This document shows positions 2,757 to 49,986 of a stretch of 64,000 bases of DNA, piece by piece. Source of the DNA: Desulfosporosinus sp. BRH_c37 (GTDB lineage Bacteria; Bacillota; Desulfitobacteriia; Desulfitobacteriales; Desulfitobacteriaceae); assembly GCA_001516045.1 (NCBI GenBank), contig LOEW01000260.1, positions 1 through 64,000 on the forward strand, given 5' to 3'. The notes beneath the pieces are model-generated. The model had not been told where the DNA came from. It saw only the letters and a program-made list of their open reading frames with translations, and made no database searches. A program made the translations under genes and the position numbers. Positions within the stretch are counted from its first letter, which is position 1. Every line of letters begins with the position of its first letter.

Positions 2757-3065
2757 ATGCCGGATTTTGGCAATTCATTCTCTGGGCTTGCAAAAGATCG
2801 CAAATTGACTGAACAGGAATTAATTAGAGCTATTAGATTCATGATTTCCGCAGAGTATGAAGCTATCCAATTGTACATGCAGTTAGCCGAGTCAACAGAT
2901 AACAAATTAGCAATTGAAGTATTAAAGGATATTGCCGATGAAGAAAAGGTGCATGCTGGAGAGTTTCTGAGACTATTAAAAGAGTTAGCTCCCGATGAAG
3001 AAAAATTCTATCTGGAAGGTGCTCAGGAAGTTGAAGAAGAGATTGAATCAATGAAAAATAAATAA
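2757..3065 (+). CDS. Small two-helix ferritin-like protein (rubrerythrin/EncFtn-like)
   Basis: The protein has 102 residues. It has two long helices: residues about 14-44 with EYEA, and about 47-95 with the DEEKVHAGEF (ExxH) metal motif. A half-ferritin with one ExxH per chain normally builds its di-iron site by dimerisation, as in the encapsulated-ferritin family and related short rubrerythrin-like proteins. The acidic C-terminus shows no obvious encapsulin-targeting peptide, and no encapsulin gene is in the window. A strong TTTAAGGAGGTAAAG site sets the ATG. It sits among decayed nickel-locus genes and overlaps none of them; its 3' end abuts a DUF3842 fragment. Iron storage or peroxide handling is inferred from the family. 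Confidence 0.72.
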   Translation: MPDFGNSFSGLAKDRKLTEQELIRAIRFMISAEYEAIQLYMQLAESTDNKLAIEVLKDIADEEKVHAGEFLRLLKELAPDEEKFYLEGAQEVEEEIESMKNK

Positions 3066-3260: not shown

Positions 3261-3310
3261 CTTTCCTTCACTCCTCAATTTTTAGCAAAAAAGAAATGGA
3301 CCGCCAGTAG

Positions 3311-3517
3311 CGCCAGGTCTATATACTGAACTCAGCAGTAGATGAACTCTTTGATTTCTCCAAGCCGACGTTTGAGTTACCCGAAAAGGCGAGAATATTT
3401 GCGACTGTAGCTTGTGAAATTTGCGGGGAAGGTGCTCCAGAGCATAAGCTTCGAATCAATGACGGAAAAAAGTATGCCTTGACTGCTTCAAAGACTATTC
3501 GAGAGGATGGTAAAGGA
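3311..3517 (+). pseudogene. FmdE-type protein, orphan C-terminal zinc-ribbon fragment
   Basis: An open frame without a start encodes ELFDFSKPTFELPEKARIF and then VACEICGEGAPEHKLRINDG, matching the end of FmdE-family proteins (ELPERARIF..C..CGE). The second Cys pair of the zinc ribbon is lost. The frame runs without a stop into the methyltransferase at 3518, so a longer methyltransferase start in this stretch would be an artefact. Confidence 0.6.
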
Positions 3518-4339
3518 ATGGATCTTCAATATTTTACTCATCTTTGGAGCGAGGGAAAGACTGACAAAGCCGCCGGTAAGTCATTTTGGGACAACAGGGC
3601 GGCTGAGTTTAATAAATTAGTTTCTCAAGTCAGTCCTGATGCTCGCATCAGGAAAATCGTTGAATATTTATCAAATCATAGCCTTCTCACCCAGAATAGT
3701 AGCGTCTTAGACATTGGCTGTGGTCCAGGAAGATTTGCCGTTGAATTTGCTAAGCTATCGACAGACGTTACAGGCCTAGACATATCCGACAACATGTTAG
3801 ACTATGCGGTGAAGAATGCCGAAGCTGCCAACCTCAACAATGTCTCGTTTAAAAACTCGAACTGGGATGAGGTCAGTCTTGAAGAACATGGCTGGGAAAA
3901 AAGGTTTGACTTGGTGACCGCGATCAACAGCCCCGGGATCCATGATCAAATCACCCTAGAAAAGATGATCGAGGCCAGCAAGGGCTACTGCTTTTTGTCC
4001 AATTTTGTGGATCGCTACGACTCTGTTCAGGACATTCTTCGCACGGAAATACTCAAACTTGAAGAAGGAAATTTTTACATCAATAACGTTTACAGCATTT
4101 TTAACATCCTTTGGCTAACTGGCTATTATCCCAGTATTACCTATGTCGATACGGATCGAGAAACTGTTCGAACGGTCGAGGAAGCTTGTGTTTATTATGG
4201 GACGCTCTTTGAAACGAAAAATAACTCCAGTGATGAGAAAAACGATTTAATAAGGTGCTATCTTGAAGAGATCTCTGTCAATGGATTTGTGATGGAGAAC
4301 GTTCGGACAAAAACTGCCTGGATTCATTGGAAAGTTTAA
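3518..4339 (+). CDS. Class I SAM-dependent methyltransferase
   Basis: The 273-residue protein has a Rossmann methyltransferase core. Motif I is VLDIGCGPGRFAVEFA at about residues 67-82, followed by the acidic strand VTGLDIS. The start is set at the ATG at 3518, behind GAGGATGG. The open frame extends further upstream, but that part encodes the tail of a broken FmdE protein. The substrate is unknown. It converges with the radical SAM/DUF5714 gene at 4499; I recall relatives of these two families as neighbours in other anaerobes, which would suggest a joint pathway, but this is inference. Confidence 0.8.
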   Translation: MDLQYFTHLWSEGKTDKAAGKSFWDNRAAEFNKLVSQVSPDARIRKIVEYLSNHSLLTQNSSVLDIGCGPGRFAVEFAKLSTDVTGLDISDNMLDYAVKNAEAANLNNVSFKNSNWDEVSLEEHGWEKRFDLVTAINSPGIHDQITLEKMIEASKGYCFLSNFVDRYDSVQDILRTEILKLEEGNFYINNVYSIFNILWLTGYYPSITYVDTDRETVRTVEEACVYYGTLFETKNNSSDEKNDLIRCYLEEISVNGFVMENVRTKTAWIHWKV

Positions 4340-4498: not shown

Positions 4499-6676
4499 TT
4501 AATATCGGCCTGGAAAATATGGGCACTTCTCATGAATACAATCCTTATTTTTAGTATACTGTTTACAAATATAATTAACCTCCGACATGGTTTTAAAATA
4601 GGTTGTATTTTTCATAAATGCTTTTATAGTAGTAATTGTTTCACGTTTACAACATCTTGGACCACCATGCCTGCTTATCTCCAATAATGCATGTGCTGTG
4701 ACTGTGTTTGCCATAGCACGTTTATCGACGGACATGGGGGTTACATCATCGATGACGGAGACCGCAATTCCTGCTCCGACACAGGCACCGCAAGTTCCAT
4801 AATAACCACATCCCCCTCCTTTGATATAATTACCGCGCTTCATACTTTCCATTATTTTTGCTGTATCCTTTTCGCCGATCAAATTCTGATACGCAGCGAC
4901 AAGAACTGCTGGTACAATACTATGATACTCAGGACCATGCATATTCAGCCCAGGAACCTCAAATATTCTTTGTATAAGGACCATAGGATTCACTTCGGTA
5001 CTGGCAGCAATGAGCCTTTCCAGTCTTTCGAGAATATCTGCAGAATGGCATAGATCACATATGAAATGACCCTCGCCGCATTTGATATGTGTTTCATTTG
5101 CTTTTCCGCAAATATTACAGATTTCTACTGTAGAGGATTTTTCTGAGTAAATCAGATCTTTTCCACATATCAAACAGCCCTCAGTTTTCTTAACCATTTC
5201 GCAACAAGATTCTGGATGCTGTTCCTGTTGAGTTATTCTCTCAGTTTGGACACCTTCCGCTTTATAATTTATTCTCTCCGCACGGTCGATGACACTTGTT
5301 TTGGATGACTGCCCCGACCTCCTGTAAAGAGATCCACCCTCTATACTGCTTAGATTATAGGCACAAAATGGAATAATCCGCCCCTCGGGACTAAGGACAT
5401 GCAAACTACACTCACGTAGCCTTTCAAGGTCGATGTTCCAACAATCTTGAAAAGCCATCCCTGTAATCGTAAATCCATGGGATCGAATTCGAGCAATAAA
5501 GCTGTCCATATCGTCCATGTTAGGATTTGTTTCTGTTCGATCTAGGTTATTTTCGGAACTGTTTCTAACCCATCGTCGCGCAACAAAATTCCTATTTCTT
5601 TCAACTGCCGAAGAATTCGTTTTTGGGCTGCAACATGTTTGCTCGCTTTTCATGGTTAAATGTTTAACACTACCGTCTGACAACATGACGAAATCTCCGT
5701 GAAAGGCACAACGAGCATGATCACAACCCGATGGTGCAAAATGTTCCACCTTGAAGATACCTTTTGTCTGACTTTCAATACCCCTGATTACCTCTGGTAG
5801 AGTAATCCGCTGACTGTCCAAGGGTGCCGTTGGGTATCTACCAAAATAACTCACCGGTTGGAAGTGTATCCCTCTTACTTCAGGGACTCTTGCCAAACCA
5901 TAGTGTATGATCTCTCCAATATTATCTGCGTTAACCCCCGGTACGATTGTTGGTACAAGCACAATTCCGAGATGGTTGTCACCACAGTTTTGGATAGCCT
6001 TTTCTTTTTCCGCTAAAAGACTGCGGCCCCTGAGCTGTTGATATATCTCGTCCCTTGTACCATCAAACTGCATGAAGACAGCAGACAAGCCTGCTTCCTT
6101 GAGTTTTTTAACATAAGCTGGCTCCCGACCTAGGCGAAGTCCGTTTGTATTTAATTGGATGTAGGGAAAGCCCATTTCCTTTGCAAGGCTGATGATTTCC
6201 GGCAAATCATTCCGCACGGTGGGCTCTCCCCCGGAAAGATGAATAAAGGGTTTTCCAGCCTCCACAAGAAGCTCCAACCACTCTCTAATCTTCTCAAAAG
6301 AAGGGTCAGTATTCTCTCCTCCACTGTTGGCAAAGCAAAAGTTACAGTTCAGGTTACAGCGTTCTGTCACTTCAATCAACACGCAGCAGGTCTGTTGTCT
6401 ATGTTCAGCGCATAAGCCGCAATCAAAAGGGCAGCCCTTTTCAACCTCAGTCAAACACTTCTGAGGATATGAGCGCAATTTTTCTTTATTCCAGGCACTA
6501 TAATCAAGTTCACCGTCGCCGCGCCAGATAATTGTTGAGAAATCACCATGCTTGTCACAGGTTTTCTGCATGTAAATATCTCCACCTGATAAAACATGCC
6601 TTGCTGGTATCCTATCTAAGCATACCGGACATACACTTTCCGTGATGTGGCGTACATTTACTGACTGATTCATCAT
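4499..6676 (-). CDS. Tes/MJ0619-like radical SAM protein fused to DUF5714
   Basis: The protein has 725 residues in three parts. (1) A Cys-rich N-terminus, CPVCLDRIPA ... CDKHGDF, residues about 16-45. (2) A radical SAM core with GCPFDCGLC, then CNLNCNFC (CxxxCxxC) near residue 113, SGGEPTVRNDL, QLNTNGLRL and HFQPVSYFGRYP, all hallmarks of the MJ0619/tetraether-lipid-synthase family. (3) A C-terminal DUF5714 domain from about residue 505 with many Cys pairs and GGGCGYYGTCGACVGAG. Archaeal relatives join lipid chains or methylate pterins; the bacterial fused form is uncharacterised as far as I know. AGGAGTT precedes the ATG pair. The gene is monocistronic and convergent with the methyltransferase. 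Confidence 0.82.
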   Translation of the reverse strand: MMNQSVNVRHITESVCPVCLDRIPARHVLSGGDIYMQKTCDKHGDFSTIIWRGDGELDYSAWNKEKLRSYPQKCLTEVEKGCPFDCGLCAEHRQQTCCVLIEVTERCNLNCNFCFANSGGENTDPSFEKIREWLELLVEAGKPFIHLSGGEPTVRNDLPEIISLAKEMGFPYIQLNTNGLRLGREPAYVKKLKEAGLSAVFMQFDGTRDEIYQQLRGRSLLAEKEKAIQNCGDNHLGIVLVPTIVPGVNADNIGEIIHYGLARVPEVRGIHFQPVSYFGRYPTAPLDSQRITLPEVIRGIESQTKGIFKVEHFAPSGCDHARCAFHGDFVMLSDGSVKHLTMKSEQTCCSPKTNSSAVERNRNFVARRWVRNSSENNLDRTETNPNMDDMDSFIARIRSHGFTITGMAFQDCWNIDLERLRECSLHVLSPEGRIIPFCAYNLSSIEGGSLYRRSGQSSKTSVIDRAERINYKAEGVQTERITQQEQHPESCCEMVKKTEGCLICGKDLIYSEKSSTVEICNICGKANETHIKCGEGHFICDLCHSADILERLERLIAASTEVNPMVLIQRIFEVPGLNMHGPEYHSIVPAVLVAAYQNLIGEKDTAKIMESMKRGNYIKGGGCGYYGTCGACVGAGIAVSVIDDVTPMSVDKRAMANTVTAHALLEISRHGGPRCCKRETITTIKAFMKNTTYFKTMSEVNYICKQYTKNKDCIHEKCPYFPGRY

Positions 6677-7964: not shown

Positions 7965-8052
7965 TATAGTGACTCCGCTAGCCGGATAGAATACGCTGAC
8001 TTCCCGACATAAACGACACCTCCCCTATCTTTCGTAGGTTCCTGTGTTGAAA

Positions 8053-8228
8053 TGCAATGAGCAGGTTTCCTGGCTTTAGTTCATCATTACCCACGTCTTC
8101 CCAGATAAAATCCAGTGACATTTTGTGAGGCAACTCCCTATAACAGTGGCGAGACCGCGTCAGATTTTAACTGACTTCCCTTTTAAATTCTTTTCCTTCG
8201 AAAAGAATCACTCATTACCAACTATTGA
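8053..8228 (-). promoter_or_regulatory. Cobalamin (B12) riboswitch for the two hypothetical genes
   Basis: Minus-strand core CGCCACTGTTATAGGGAG and 3' box AGCCAGGAAACCTGC, followed by a terminator and the gene at 7907. It lies just after the cbiN stop, but its direction shows that it controls the genes to its left, not the cobalt transporter. Confidence 0.92.
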
Positions 8229-8237
8229 ATTGTTCTC

Positions 8238-11515: not shown

Positions 11516-11582
11516 AACTCGTATTTAACGCGAGCACTATTAACAACCCCCTAACAATCCCGTAGGTAGTTTTCACTTCGGA

Positions 11583-11757
11583 ACAAGCAGGTCTCCTGGC
11601 TTAAGATCTTCATCAACTCACGTCTTCCCGGGAATAGATCCCCAGTGACATTTTGTAAGTAGACTCCCTTTCACAGTGGCGGGCGCCGCGTCAGCTTATC
11701 TGACTTCCCTTTTCAATTCTTTCCCCTCAGGAAAGAATCACTCATTCCTACATATTG
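11583..11757 (-). promoter_or_regulatory. Cobalamin (B12) riboswitch of cbiQOMN
   Basis: Minus-strand core GGCGCCCGCCACTGTGAAAG and box AGCCAGGAGACCTGC. It is about 90 percent identical by eye to the riboswitch at 13433, showing recent duplication. It represses the cobalt importer when cobalamin is abundant. Confidence 0.93.
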
Positions 11758-11819
11758 AATTGTGCATATCATAACACGAACCAATAGGTTTGTATAGTAC
11801 TATTGGGTAAGCCTTAACT

Positions 11820-13367: not shown

Positions 13368-13432
13368 GCTCGTATTAATCACAAACGTCAATAACAAACC
13401 CCTAACACTCCCGTAGGTAGTTTTCACTTCAG

Positions 13433-13610
13433 AACAAGCAGGTCTCCTGACTAAAGATCTTCATCAACTTACGTCTTCCCGGGATTAGATACCCAGTGAT
13501 ATTTTGCAAGTAGACTCCCTTTCACAGTGGCGGGCGCCGCGTCAGCTTAACTGACTTCCCTTTTCAATTCTTTCCCCTCAGGAAAGAATCACTCATTCCT
13601 ACATATTTAA
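13433..13610 (-). promoter_or_regulatory. Cobalamin (B12) riboswitch, duplicated copy
   Basis: The same core and box as the riboswitch at 11583, with a complete terminator behind it. Only a cbiN relic follows closely; the first intact gene downstream is the EamA transporter at 12866. It either controls that transporter over a long leader or is an orphan. Confidence 0.9.
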
Positions 13611-13618
13611 TTGATTTC

Positions 13619-29474: not shown

Positions 29475-30422
29475 ATGCAAGAAAAAATGGGGCTGATTTT
29501 TGATATTCAAAGTTACTCTGTTCATGATGGACCTGGGTGTCGTACCTTGGTATTTCTGAGCGGGTGCCCTTTGAAATGCCAATGGTGTGCCAACGTTGAA
29601 GGTTGGGAGTATCGGCAACGGTTAATGTTTAGAATGACTAAATGTGTCCACGAAAGCTCAGGCTGTCATCGATGTGTTGATGTTTGTTCGCGTCAAGCCA
29701 TAACTGTAAGTGATAAGACTAAATTACCAGTTATTGATTGGAAAAAATGCTGGGATTGTTTGACGTTTGACTGCACAAAAGCCTGTCTTAAAGAGGCAAT
29801 GGAGGTTAGTGGCAGGTGGATGAGCGGGACTGAACTAATGTGCATTTTAACCCGCGATCGAAACTACTGGGGCTCAAATGGAGGAGTAACTTTTAGTGGC
29901 GGCGAGCCTCTTTTCCAAAAGGAATTTATTATGGGGATCTTAAAACGCTGCAAGGAGGCATATTTACACACGGTCATTGAAACTACTGGTTGTATTGAGA
30001 CAGAGTTTTTCCTGGATGCTATGCGTTATGTAGATTTCGTCTTTATCGATATCAAACATATGAATTCTATAAAACACAAGGAAAAGACGGGTGTGGGAAA
30101 TGAGCTTATCTTAAAAAACATAAAAAGTTTACAAGAGTCTGATTGGCCTGGTAGATTGGTTATTCGCATGCCGTTAATCGAAAATTTCAATGACAACGAT
30201 GAAAATATAATTGCCCAGGCTGAGTTTTTGCATAATATCGGCCTCAGGGAAGTGAACATTCTGCCGTTTCACCGTATGGGAGAATCTAAGTGGCGACAAG
30301 TTGGGATGGACTATCCGTATAAAGAAATAGAAGGCACGCCGGATAAAGTTTTAGAACGAGTGCAGGCGCTATTTCTAGATCGTGACATTTTATGTTATGT
30401 AGGTTCAGATACGCCGTTTTAG
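29475..30422 (+). CDS. hpdA: Glycyl-radical enzyme activating protein (4-hydroxyphenylacetate decarboxylase activase)
   Basis: A 315-residue radical SAM activase. GLIFDIQSYSVHDGPGCRTL and CPLKCQWC (CxxxCxxC) form the SAM cluster site. An inserted ferredoxin-like part has CHRCVDVC and CWDCLTFDCTKACLKEA. GVTFSGGEPLFQ follows. It makes the glycyl radical on its partner enzyme using reduced iron-sulfur and SAM. The shared leader with hpdB, 10 kb away, identifies that enzyme as the likely partner. The start ATG follows TTGGAGG. Confidence 0.88.
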   Translation: MQEKMGLIFDIQSYSVHDGPGCRTLVFLSGCPLKCQWCANVEGWEYRQRLMFRMTKCVHESSGCHRCVDVCSRQAITVSDKTKLPVIDWKKCWDCLTFDCTKACLKEAMEVSGRWMSGTELMCILTRDRNYWGSNGGVTFSGGEPLFQKEFIMGILKRCKEAYLHTVIETTGCIETEFFLDAMRYVDFVFIDIKHMNSIKHKEKTGVGNELILKNIKSLQESDWPGRLVIRMPLIENFNDNDENIIAQAEFLHNIGLREVNILPFHRMGESKWRQVGMDYPYKEIEGTPDKVLERVQALFLDRDILCYVGSDTPF

Positions 30423-40150: not shown

Positions 40151-42862
40151 ATGGTTAAGACATTGGCTGAAATTCTTGCGGGAAAAGGTCAGGACATTAA
40201 CTTTCAGTACGGCGGCAAAGCACCTGCTGAAGTGGTAGATCGTGAGATTAAAAAAGAACCTTTTCCCCGGGTGAAAAAACTGAAAGAAATGTATATGAAC
40301 TGTCTTTCATCAGCAACAACAGAGTTCCCCTACTGGTATACACGAAAATACCAAGAACTGGATGGAGAAATTCCTGTTGTGCGGCGTGCAGCTGCCTTAA
40401 AAGAAGCTTTCGCCCATTCTACGCCTGTTATTTGGCCTGGAGAATTGTTGGTAGGAAGTAAGGCCTTCTATTATCGTGGTTCCTTTCCCATGCCTTGGCT
40501 TTCGGAAGGTTACTTTATGGCTAAAGAGGATGAACTTTATCAATCAGCCCTTGCCAAGGGCAGCGCAAGCGCAGACGAATTGAGTGAGTTCGGAACGGGT
40601 GGTGGTAACGTAACCAAAAGTTTCGGCAAAGTCACTTCGATTGCTGGAAAATTCGGGATGCGTGCCGAAGAGGTACCTGCCTTGGTGAAATTGGCGAAAG
40701 CCTGGGTCGGCAAGTCTGTTGACGACTTGGGACACAAGTACGAACAAATGGTTCCCGAATATGACACTAAAGAAAAGGTTATGCGTAGCTTAATCTGCAT
40801 GTTTGACTCGGGCTATACCCTACCGCAAGGACGGGAAGTCGTCAATTACTATTTCCCCCTTCAATATGGTTTTGATGGATTACTTAAGTTAGCCAAGGAA
40901 AGAAAAGCAGAGGTTGCCGGTAATGCAGATGGTGACGGTGTAAGCGGCATGGATCGTCTCTATTTTTATGAAGCGGTTATCCTAACCCTAGAAGGCATTC
41001 AGCTCTGGATTCGCAACTACGCTAAAGAAGCAAGGCGTCTGGCTCAACTGATAAATGATCCGGAACGACTTGAAGAACTGGGTAAAATAGCCGAGATCAT
41101 GGATTGGATTTCCGCTAATCAGCCCAGGACTTTTCGGGAGGCTTTACAGCTTACCTATCTTATTCACATTGCCGTACTAAATGAAGATGCTATCTCGGGG
41201 TTATCTCCCGGTCGCTTGGGCCAAGTTCTCTATCCTTGGTTTGAGCAAGACATTGAAGCGGGTCGAATTACAGAAAGTGAAGTGCTTGAACTGCTCGAAT
41301 GCCATAGAATGAAATTTACCTGTATAGATTGTTTTGCTTCTACCGGTGTTGTTGGTGGTGTTCTTTCAGGTAATACTTTTAACAATTTAGCTCTTGGCGG
41401 GTTGACCCGAGATGGCAAGTCTGCAGCTAACCGTTTGGAATTTTTGATCATTGAGGCTGGCATGACCAATGAAACAACCCAGCCGACCCTATCCATGCTG
41501 TATGATGAAAAGCTCCCGGAGGAATTCTTGCTGAAAGCCATTGAATGTAATAAGACTGGTACAGGTTATCCCGCTTGGATGAACAACCAAAATGCGATTG
41601 CCTTCTTACTGAGACAATATGGTCCTGAAGGTATGACTATCGAGGAAGCACGGTCTGTAGCAATTGGTGGCTGTTTGGAAACCTCTCCCTGCGCTTGGCA
41701 CGCACTAACTCTAAACGGCAAAAAGTATTGGATTACCGGCGGTGCCGGACAACCTACCAGCGTTGGTGTTCACTTTATTGCCAATCCCAAGGTGCTCGAA
41801 TTAGTGCTTACGAATGGTTATGATCATAGGATCAGAGAACAAGTACTGCCACCCCATAATAAAGAACTGGAGTCCTATGAGGAACTATTGGAAACCTTTA
41901 AAGAATATTACCTTCTTGTTGTTGATTGTCTTGCAAAAACGAACAATATCCAGCACGATGTTTGGCGAAAAAATAACATGTCAGTATTTAATTCTCTTCT
42001 CAAACCAGATTGCCTGACTAAGGGGCAGCATATTGGCAACCTTGGTTACCGCTATAACGCGACGTTTAATATTGAAACCTGTGGGACGATTAATCAAGTT
42101 AACTCACTGGTCGCGTTAAAAAAATTGGTATATGAGGATCAGAAATATTCCTTGGTGGAAATGAAGGAAGCCATCCTGAATAACTTCGGCTTTAAATCTG
42201 CTCTGGAAATCGGCAGTTTCTCCTTGGCTACTCAAGAAAGGAAAAGTGACGGGGAGCAATTTGCGGAGATTCATAGCGATTGTCTAAAAGCTCCCAAGTA
42301 TGGCAATGACGATTTCTTTGCCGACAGTATTCTGAAAGAGTATGAAGAGTGGTTATGTGTAATATGCAAGGATTTTGAATCTTTGTATGCTAAGCCTATG
42401 TACCCTTGTCAAATCTCCGTTTCTACCCACGGGCCACAAGGCGCTGCGACCTTGGCTTCTGCCGATGGACGTTTGACTGGAACCACGTATGCTGATGGTT
42501 CAATGTCAGCCTATCCAGGTACAGATAAGAACGGCCCCTACGCACTTTTCAACTCAGCTACAGTTTGGGATCATACCCAATCACAGAATTCGCAAATGAA
42601 CCTTAAACTCCACCCGAATTCGGTAAAAGGGTTGGAAGGATCAAAGAAGCTACTTGAACTTACACGCGCTTACTTGCGTCAAGGTGGATATCACATTCAA
42701 TACAACATTGTTGATTCTAAAATGCTTAAAAACGCTCAAGAAACTCCTGGCCTACACCGTGATCTTATGGTGCGCGTAGCTGGCTTTACTCAATATTGGG
42801 TGGAAATTGGCAAGCCAATTCAGGACGAGGTTATCGCCAGGACCGAGTACGAAGGAATTTAG
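40151..42862 (+). CDS. hpdB: 4-Hydroxyphenylacetate decarboxylase, glycyl-radical large subunit
   Basis: A 903-residue glycyl-radical enzyme. The thiyl-radical site is GGCLETSPC, with the Cys-x-Glu pair specific to arylacetate decarboxylases. The glycyl loop RVAGFTQYW puts the radical Gly at about residue 878. Long stretches recall the Clostridioides difficile enzyme ([58 protein letters not shown]). It converts 4-hydroxyphenylacetate to p-cresol and CO2. The small-subunit gene follows 18 bases after the stop. The enzyme must be made and stored without oxygen. The ribosome site is AAGGGAGG. Confidence 0.92.
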
Positions 42863-48912: not shown

Positions 48913-49986
48913 TCAAGGACAAACGGTTATGCCCCGTCCCCATAGACAATCTCCACAAGCCGGAGCATGGCCCAAGCAATCCATATCTGCCCGTAGAACC
49001 ATATCACACCCATCAACCCACTTACAATCAGGACACGATGCGTATTCGCCGTGCAGAACATTGTAACGATAACTCATAAATTCAGGAGAAGTCCAGATTT
49101 TAAGCAACGGTTGCTCACTGAGTGAACCAAAACTGTGGGCGTCAATCAACTTGTGCCTTCCAAAAACATATTCTGGATAAGAATGCAAAAACCGATAACA
49201 GGGAGAAACATGACCGTCCCAGCGTACAACCGCACTTTGAGTTTCCATAAACTTGCAATACCGTTCTGTTTTTAACTCGCTCTTGGGCAAGACCACCTCC
49301 ACACCTTTGGCTAGCCCCACAAACAAAGCCTCTTGAAAGGTACGTTCTGTCTCAGGAAGCATAGGGTGATAAAGGGTTTCAACAATCGACTCTTCCCGCA
49401 TAGGTAGAATATGGGAAACGAAGACCCGATTCACTCCCAATTGTGCCGCCTGGCGCACGGTCTCTAGCAAATATGGAAGAGTGCTCTTCATGGCCAGGAA
49501 TTCCCATATGATCTCTGGTCTCCCAGTAACCCTCTGTTCTGCTATCTGACGCGTGCTATCCAAGATCCCTTGTACATCTTGATGCCGAATAGTAGCGAAT
49601 GTCTGCACATCTGTTGAATCAACAGACAATGCTATCCGGGCAACACCACGAGAAAGTAAAAATTCAATCATAGGCTCATCCAAAGTTGTCCCGTTCGTAG
49701 TCACGGTAACTTCATACCGAGAAGCGAATAGTTCCACCGCTTGTCGGAAATTATGGGCAATCGTCGGTTCCCCAATCCCTCCTAGAATCACTTCCTTAAG
49801 GTCGGGAAAAGCTGCTACTTCACCCGCGATTGAGCTTAGAACCTGGGTTGACATATCACCCAAAAGTTCCTGCCAGTTTCTGCGGTAACACATTTCACAA
49901 GACAGATTGCAACGGTTAGTCAACTCAAGGTAAAGGCGTTCTATCGAAGGGGAAGGATGATAAACTAACTCAACGATATCTTTCAT
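48913..49986 (-). CDS. Radical SAM/SPASM protein, probable tungsten-cofactor oxidoreductase maturase
   Basis: A 357-residue radical SAM enzyme. CNLSCEMCYRRNW is the CxxxCxxC motif near residue 32, with LGGIGEPT and TTNGTTL. The SPASM-type end has CYRF, CPDCKWVDGC and CGDCLWGRGITVCP. I recall this ending from the radical SAM maturases that accompany tungsten aldehyde oxidoreductases. No such oxidoreductase or peptide gene is nearby, so the target is unknown. The ribosome site is AGAGGAG. A LysR gene lies upstream on the same strand. Confidence 0.75.
   Translation of the reverse strand: MKDIVELVYHPSPSIERLYLELTNRCNLSCEMCYRRNWQELLGDMSTQVLSSIAGEVAAFPDLKEVILGGIGEPTIAHNFRQAVELFASRYEVTVTTNGTTLDEPMIEFLLSRGVARIALSVDSTDVQTFATIRHQDVQGILDSTRQIAEQRVTGRPEIIWEFLAMKSTLPYLLETVRQAAQLGVNRVFVSHILPMREESIVETLYHPMLPETERTFQEALFVGLAKGVEVVLPKSELKTERYCKFMETQSAVVRWDGHVSPCYRFLHSYPEYVFGRHKLIDAHSFGSLSEQPLLKIWTSPEFMSYRYNVLHGEYASCPDCKWVDGCDMVLRADMDCLGHAPACGDCLWGRGITVCP

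Follow-up and report, generated by a model that had tools for sequence, protein, structure and literature searches.

Which reaction would a bacterium carry out with a radical SAM enzyme that resembles the archaeal tetraether-lipid synthase Tes? The question is raised by a gene near the start of the window, by which we mean the whole stretch of 64,000 nucleotides analysed here. Bacterial Tes homologues are under discussion as sources of membrane-spanning lipids, and TrsS, the family to which this gene is assigned below, is catalogued but uncharacterised. The gene and the parts of its product are as follows:

4499..6676 (-), TrsS-DUF5714 fusion of 725 aa (intact open reading frame; Pfam and NCBIfam matches; fused orthologues)
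6521..6649 (-), rubredoxin-like mononuclear-iron motif CX2CX20CX2H with C16, C19, C40 and H43 (Pfam PF23545; strictly or almost strictly conserved across 102 TrsS rows)
6401..6433 (-), N-terminal auxiliary cluster motif C82-C86-C89 plus H92 (aligns with MJ0619 C73/C77/C80 plus His; 101/102 TrsS rows)
5903..6376 (-), radical SAM domain, residues 101-258 (PF04055, E 5e-27; fold match to 7tol)
6335..6358 (-), radical SAM cluster motif CX3CX2C with C107, C111 and C114 (invariant in 102 TrsS rows)
5363..5458 (-), C-terminal auxiliary cluster region with M407, C423, C438 and V427 (alignment to Tes ligands)
5180..5317 (-), flexible linker, residues 454-499 (pLDDT below 50)
4514..5020 (-), DUF5714 domain, residues 553-721 (PF18978, E 1e-52; seven Cys invariant in 20 relatives; model pLDDT 87)

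Family membership and metal sites of the fusion protein

Fused full-length orthologues of the protein are present in other genomes at about 65-75% identity. Pfam placed a Zn_ribbon_HMPTM domain at residues 10-52, ahead of the Radical_SAM domain, and DUF5714 scored 178.3 against a gathering threshold of 26.2. The best PDB match was GDGT-MAS/Tes MJ0619 (7tol, E 7e-93), and an AlphaFold model of the full protein matched 7tol over the full target with a TM of 0.72 by target length; in this model, the disordered linker precedes DUF5714. These domain and structure matches are far above chance. An earlier sequence-only reading, which had described a Tes-like radical SAM core with DUF5714 attached, was thereby borne out, as were the coordinates it gave, and it was also right in expecting an anaerobic bacterium and unknown radical chemistry.

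The same reading had named the core Tes/MJ0619-like, two names that denote the same protein (PMC9433317). The likeness to Tes stands, but the protein is not Tes itself: it reached 360.7 bits with the NCBIfam Tes model (cut-off 450) and 645.9 bits with the TrsS model (NF045646, cut-off 490). A maximum-likelihood tree gave the same picture. Besides TrsS, it contained MJ0619, haloarchaeal, mycobacterial and Persicobacter Tes-like proteins and a second bacterial clade, with a single true archaeal Tes row pieced together from two aligned stretches; rooting with MoaA was dropped, as this produced a branch of length 5. TrsS formed one clade of 45 rows (support 100/98) apart from Tes, the Tes-like rows and the second bacterial clade, and the row of the window lay well inside it, next to Candidatus Formimonas warabiya (79%) and Clostridium ragsdalei. 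Membership in Tes is ruled out by the score below the cut-off and the place outside the Tes clade; on the sequence evidence, the core is almost certainly TrsS.

The gene is therefore a member of a known, uncharacterised family in a new domain arrangement. It shares with other TrsS genes a score far over the equivalog cut-off, a nested position in the clade and a genome that contains a molybdenum aldehyde oxidoreductase (AOR) system, and it differs from them in its C-terminal DUF5714, its location outside an AOR operon and the lack of an in-frame TGA. A 2026 review (PMC13188914) counts TrsS among the radical SAM selenoprotein families, with reference to Haft and Tolstoy 2025; selenocysteine is a feature of only some TrsS members. 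As no in-frame TGA occurs in the open reading frame of the window, this protein is the cysteine form without selenocysteine. Across 102 relatives, no selenocysteine position was found in TrsS; nearly every TGA lay at the C-terminal end and acts there as the stop codon.

With MJ0619 (7TOL), the protein shares the domain order, the rubredoxin-like site, the N-terminal cluster, the radical SAM cluster and the methionine of the C-terminal cluster; it differs in clade, in a valine in place of Tyr459, in a shorter middle region and in the added DUF5714. The spacing of C16/C19/C40/H43 is the same as that of C9/C12/C33/H36 in MJ0619, and the Tes ligands mapped from the published structure (PMC9433317) place M407 at the labile Met439 of Tes, with C423 and C438 as further invariant cysteines among the 102 TrsS rows. 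Judged from the alignment, the four metal sites of Tes are kept as far as their ligands can be placed, the third cysteine ligand of the C-terminal cluster being unaligned. Tyr459, which is strictly conserved in archaeal Tes yet dispensable for activity (PMC9433317), corresponds to V427, and valine is found here in 98/102 TrsS rows. TrsS also has cysteines of its own, namely an invariant C97 and C323 and a near-invariant CC pair (348, 349), and MJ0619 has no cysteine opposite C97. Given the retained ligands, the change of Tyr459 to valine and the TrsS-specific cysteines, the radical machinery is Tes-like and the substrate site has probably diverged.

The sequence-only reading had further proposed a membrane-lipid pathway. 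An enzyme that joins alkyl chains as Tes does would yield bacterial membrane-spanning lipids, and the closest solved structure, the conserved metal sites and the proposal of bacterial Tes homologues as candidates for branched tetraether synthesis (PMC8941075) would all fit such a role. We nevertheless regard lipid coupling as very improbable. TrsS scores below the Tes cut-off and falls outside the Tes clade, Tyr459 is replaced by valine in nearly all rows (even if this residue is dispensable in Tes), and the stretch between the core and the C-terminal cluster is polar and about 36 residues shorter than in MJ0619. Moreover, none of 398 genomes sampled across the phylum encoded a protein over the Tes cut-off, which archaeal control genomes do exceed; no lipid gene was noticed beside TrsS, and its presence tracks a molybdenum enzyme system instead.

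Association of TrsS with the molybdenum aldehyde oxidoreductase

This system is built around the Desulfovibrio-type AOR (NF045668). Counting TrsS over its cut-off, we found 26 genomes with both TrsS and AOR among the 61 genomes of the order, one with TrsS only, none with AOR only and 34 with neither (Fisher p 2e-16, shared ancestry uncorrected). In the phylum sample of 398 genomes, the corresponding numbers were 25, 1, 3 and 369 (Fisher p 3e-35, likewise uncorrected for shared ancestry). TrsS and AOR thus agreed in 60/61 and 394/398 genomes, respectively, the latter across 14 families. Controls in the same 61 genomes gave much weaker associations (second Tes-like clade, p 0.18; DUF5714, p 0.002; convergent methyltransferase, p 0.003).

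The linkage is also physical. The conserved cassette comprises NF045668, NF045663, NF045669, NF045667, TrsS, NF045666, NF045665 and an XdhC-like gene, and the operon of a standalone TrsS in the same genus encodes AOR, a dicluster flavoprotein (NF045663), a small redox protein, a DVU_1555 C-GCAxxG-C-C protein, TrsM, TrsS, a DVU_1553 AMP-ligase, a DVU_1551 nucleotidyltransferase and an XdhC-like factor. TrsM belongs to the DVU_1556 family and is the TrsS-associated methyltransferase. A cassette of the DVU_1551-1559 type (NF045663, NF045665 to NF045669) is the normal genome context of TrsS. The gene in the window is located elsewhere, with no adjoining AOR, and is flanked by cobalt uptake genes that carry cobalamin riboswitches. 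A literature search on the DVU_1551-1559 genes and on DUF5714 yielded nothing useful.

Judging from these gene distributions, TrsS accompanies the Desulfovibrio-type AOR system almost obligatorily. Since it is carried almost only together with AOR, service to AOR is likelier than service to membrane lipids, and we consider it highly probable that TrsS serves this system. The near one-to-one link provides TrsS with a testable function and warns against annotating TrsS genes as lipid genes; TrsS and DUF5714 become tied to a defined molybdenum enzyme system, and the lipid reading loses support.

The separation of the window gene from AOR raises the issue of action in trans. This genome contains three AOR loci. 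In the operon on contig C83, only TrsS residues 421-450 are left, between TrsM and the ligase; in that on C166, residues 6-65 and 409-449 remain; and the operon on C245 stops at the contig end after TrsM, just where TrsS would come. No intact TrsS other than the fused copy was found in this genome, a result to be read with the incomplete C245 operon in mind, where a further TrsS is possible. A comparable situation was observed in G012, where the AOR operon on C22 holds a TrsS remnant and an intact TrsS is kept elsewhere. In G049 and G053, the AOR operon lacks TrsS, the other genes being present, and the only TrsS over the cut-off is a fused one at another locus. Because the sole intact TrsS found is the fused copy, two of the three AOR operons hold only remnants and G049 and G053 show a parallel arrangement, the fused copy probably serves the AOR operons in trans. 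At locus L085, the fused TrsS is itself part of an AOR operon, which is preceded by a molybdenum/tungsten cofactor riboswitch. Read most simply, the fused protein fulfils the TrsS function for AOR and can do so from a separate locus.

In three loci of Peptococcaceae metagenome-assembled genomes, the fused TrsS directly follows a DMSO-reductase-type molybdoenzyme; because of this, the fused form may serve more than one molybdenum enzyme.

The TrsS pseudogene remnants in otherwise intact AOR operons, seen in two genomes, have the positions L075:9844-10184 (-), L076:9028-9132 (+) and L201:5485-6205 (-).

DUF5714 and the convergent methyltransferase

DUF5714 is C-terminal to TrsS in the clade of the window and N-terminal in three Bacteroidota loci, and the fused spans contained no internal stop. 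In eight Bacillota loci and one deltaproteobacterial locus, it is a separate gene adjoining TrsS. The co-occurrence check called for by the earlier reading thus linked DUF5714 and TrsS by both fusion orders and by adjacency. Since DUF5714 is fused at either end of TrsS or adjoins it, functional coupling is suggested, and at the level of gene arrangement DUF5714 is a recurrent TrsS partner. The alternative, a chance attachment of a domain that has no function for TrsS, draws on its wider distribution, as DUF5714 is present in 32/61 genomes of the order, more than TrsS, and also occurs in other settings. This explanation is very unlikely given that both fusion orders arose in separate lineages, that the two genes adjoin each other in others and that another radical SAM family carries a DUF5714 fusion as well. 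The latter fusion was found in G056 (L215:3601-5670 (-)), where its neighbours are a methyltransferase gene and a thioredoxin-like gene.

Contig C121 of the genome of the window also has an unfused DUF5714 gene, with radical SAM, methyltransferase and thioredoxin-like genes nearby (L215, L216 and L165, listed jointly with the G056 fusion).

In the confident model of the domain (pLDDT 87, pTM 0.86), a small beta region is followed by a bundle of helices, and neither a PDB match below E 4 nor a sequence match was obtained for it. It shares PF18978 with the metal-binding double selenoprotein MbdU (NF045648), including a Cys-Cys pair and further invariant cysteines, but the window protein scored 117.9 bits against the MbdU cut-off of 600, and its DUF5714 is joined to a radical SAM enzyme. 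DUF5714 is best seen as a cysteine-rich partner of radical SAM enzymes, with electron, metal or sulfur supply or substrate docking as possible roles. The fusion provides this family without a solved fold with a concrete partner.

A comparison of DUF5714 with C_GCAxxG_C_C (PF09719) by hhalign yielded a probability of 4% (p 0.01) with the CGA-G motif aligned. The C-GCAxxG-C-C protein of the cassette was found in 5/21 TrsS loci with DUF5714 versus 47/82 without it, so that the two are rarer together than expected (p 0.007, the loci being related). That DUF5714 replaces this protein is not claimed, as both coexist and the loci are related.

The second candidate partner was a class I methyltransferase converging on the fusion gene:

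3518..4339 (+), convergent class I methyltransferase, of an FmdE-methyltransferase pair judged to lie outside the TrsS system (orthologue contexts)
3287..3510 (+), frameshifted 3' FmdE remnant ahead of the methyltransferase (74% identity over 69 residues with a stop, plus a second frame)

The gene named by the sequence-only reading exists and ends at 4339, but the partnership assigned to it did not hold. FmdE directly precedes the methyltransferase in 13/13 close full-length orthologues (68-82% identity), and within the genus the methyltransferase was not associated with TrsS (p 0.44). Three genomes carry it without TrsS, and several TrsS genomes lack it. Based on the FmdE pairing, the within-genus result and the FmdE remnant in the window, it is ruled out as a TrsS partner. 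Tes-type enzymes are often accompanied by a methyltransferase, as by TrsM in the AOR operons, and in Haloarcula, Halorarius and Mycolicibacterium plasmids (L221, L222, L224, L225) a methyltransferase-domain gene directly follows the Tes-like gene.

Candidate role of TrsS in the AOR system

As an overall explanation, we favour an accessory radical step in the AOR system, carried out by TrsS-DUF5714, and consider it probable. TrsS would cleave SAM reductively, and the 5'-deoxyadenosyl radical would abstract a hydrogen from a substrate belonging to the AOR system. The substrate radical could then be caught at the C-terminal [4Fe-4S] cluster to form a C-S or C-C bond, as in Tes; by analogy with that enzyme, such radical capture has about equal chances of being right or wrong. 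TrsM of the AOR operon would act on the same pathway, and DUF5714 would supply electrons, metal or sulfur, or dock the substrate.

The chances are similarly balanced for a small, non-lipid molecule as the substrate. Among possible substrates, we place first a small molecule of the cofactor type that belongs to the AOR system; it is preferred over the AOR protein because we know of no unusual modification in the structure of the Desulfovibrio gigas AOR. The AOR of the genome of the window is close to that enzyme (11 PDB entries). To our knowledge, the AOR crystal structures contain ordinary cytosine-dinucleotide molybdopterin and give no hint of a product requiring a radical SAM enzyme, a point against the radical step favoured here.

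The closeness to the D. gigas enzyme and its lack of a known unusual modification weigh against a maturase, that is, TrsS acting directly on the AOR protein or its molybdenum cofactor, for example by sulfur or selenium insertion or by altering the pterin. Such a function would fit the MocA-like nucleotidyltransferase and the XdhC-like maturation factor in the operons, as well as the molybdenum cofactor riboswitch ahead of one AOR-TrsS operon. It would also fit a truncated TrsS (L072:8432-9220 (+)), 85% identical to the core of the window protein, whose upstream genes resemble SelD, YedF and cysteine desulfurase. A further point in its favour is the second Tes-related clade (L063-L071, L073, L074), which reaches 302-349 bits with the TrsS profile, below the cut-off, and sits in DMSOR-DmsB-NrfD-rSAM-DMSOR operons, often with MoeA-, MogA- and MoaA-like genes. 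The CoA-ligase-like protein and the methyltransferase, however, fit a small-molecule pathway at least equally well, and with the resemblance to the D. gigas enzyme we hold a maturase to be rather unlikely.

Methylation of a pterin, as once proposed for MJ0619, is very unlikely. Pfam names the N-terminal ribbon for that activity and the AOR system uses a pterin cofactor, but the older annotation of MJ0619 was not reproducible and its pocket is ill-suited to a pterin (PMC9433317).

The accessory radical step may extend beyond AOR. We tentatively suggest a molybdoenzyme-linked superfamily of bacterial Tes-type radical SAM enzymes, in which TrsS goes with AOR and the second clade with DMSO-reductase-type enzymes. 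Its members could provide a novel radical C-S or C-C bond-forming step needed by these molybdoenzymes, with DUF5714 as a dedicated partner lacking a PDB fold match.

Several other features of the window were recorded. Four cobalamin riboswitches lie within 13.6 kb, together with two cobalt uptake gene sets (1-171, 8043-8230, 11569-11760 and 13420-13611 (-)). At 2757-3065 (+), there is an EncB-family ferritin-like encapsulin cargo gene, with no shell gene noticed adjoining it. A radical SAM protein at 48913-49986 (-) scored 362 of 380 bits for a tungsten oxidoreductase maturase family, just below the cut-off. The large subunit of 4-hydroxyphenylacetate decarboxylase and its activase are encoded 10 kb apart, at 29475-30422 (+) and 40151-42862 (+), and between them lie a vinylphenol-reductase-like flavoprotein gene and NuoF/NuoG-like genes.
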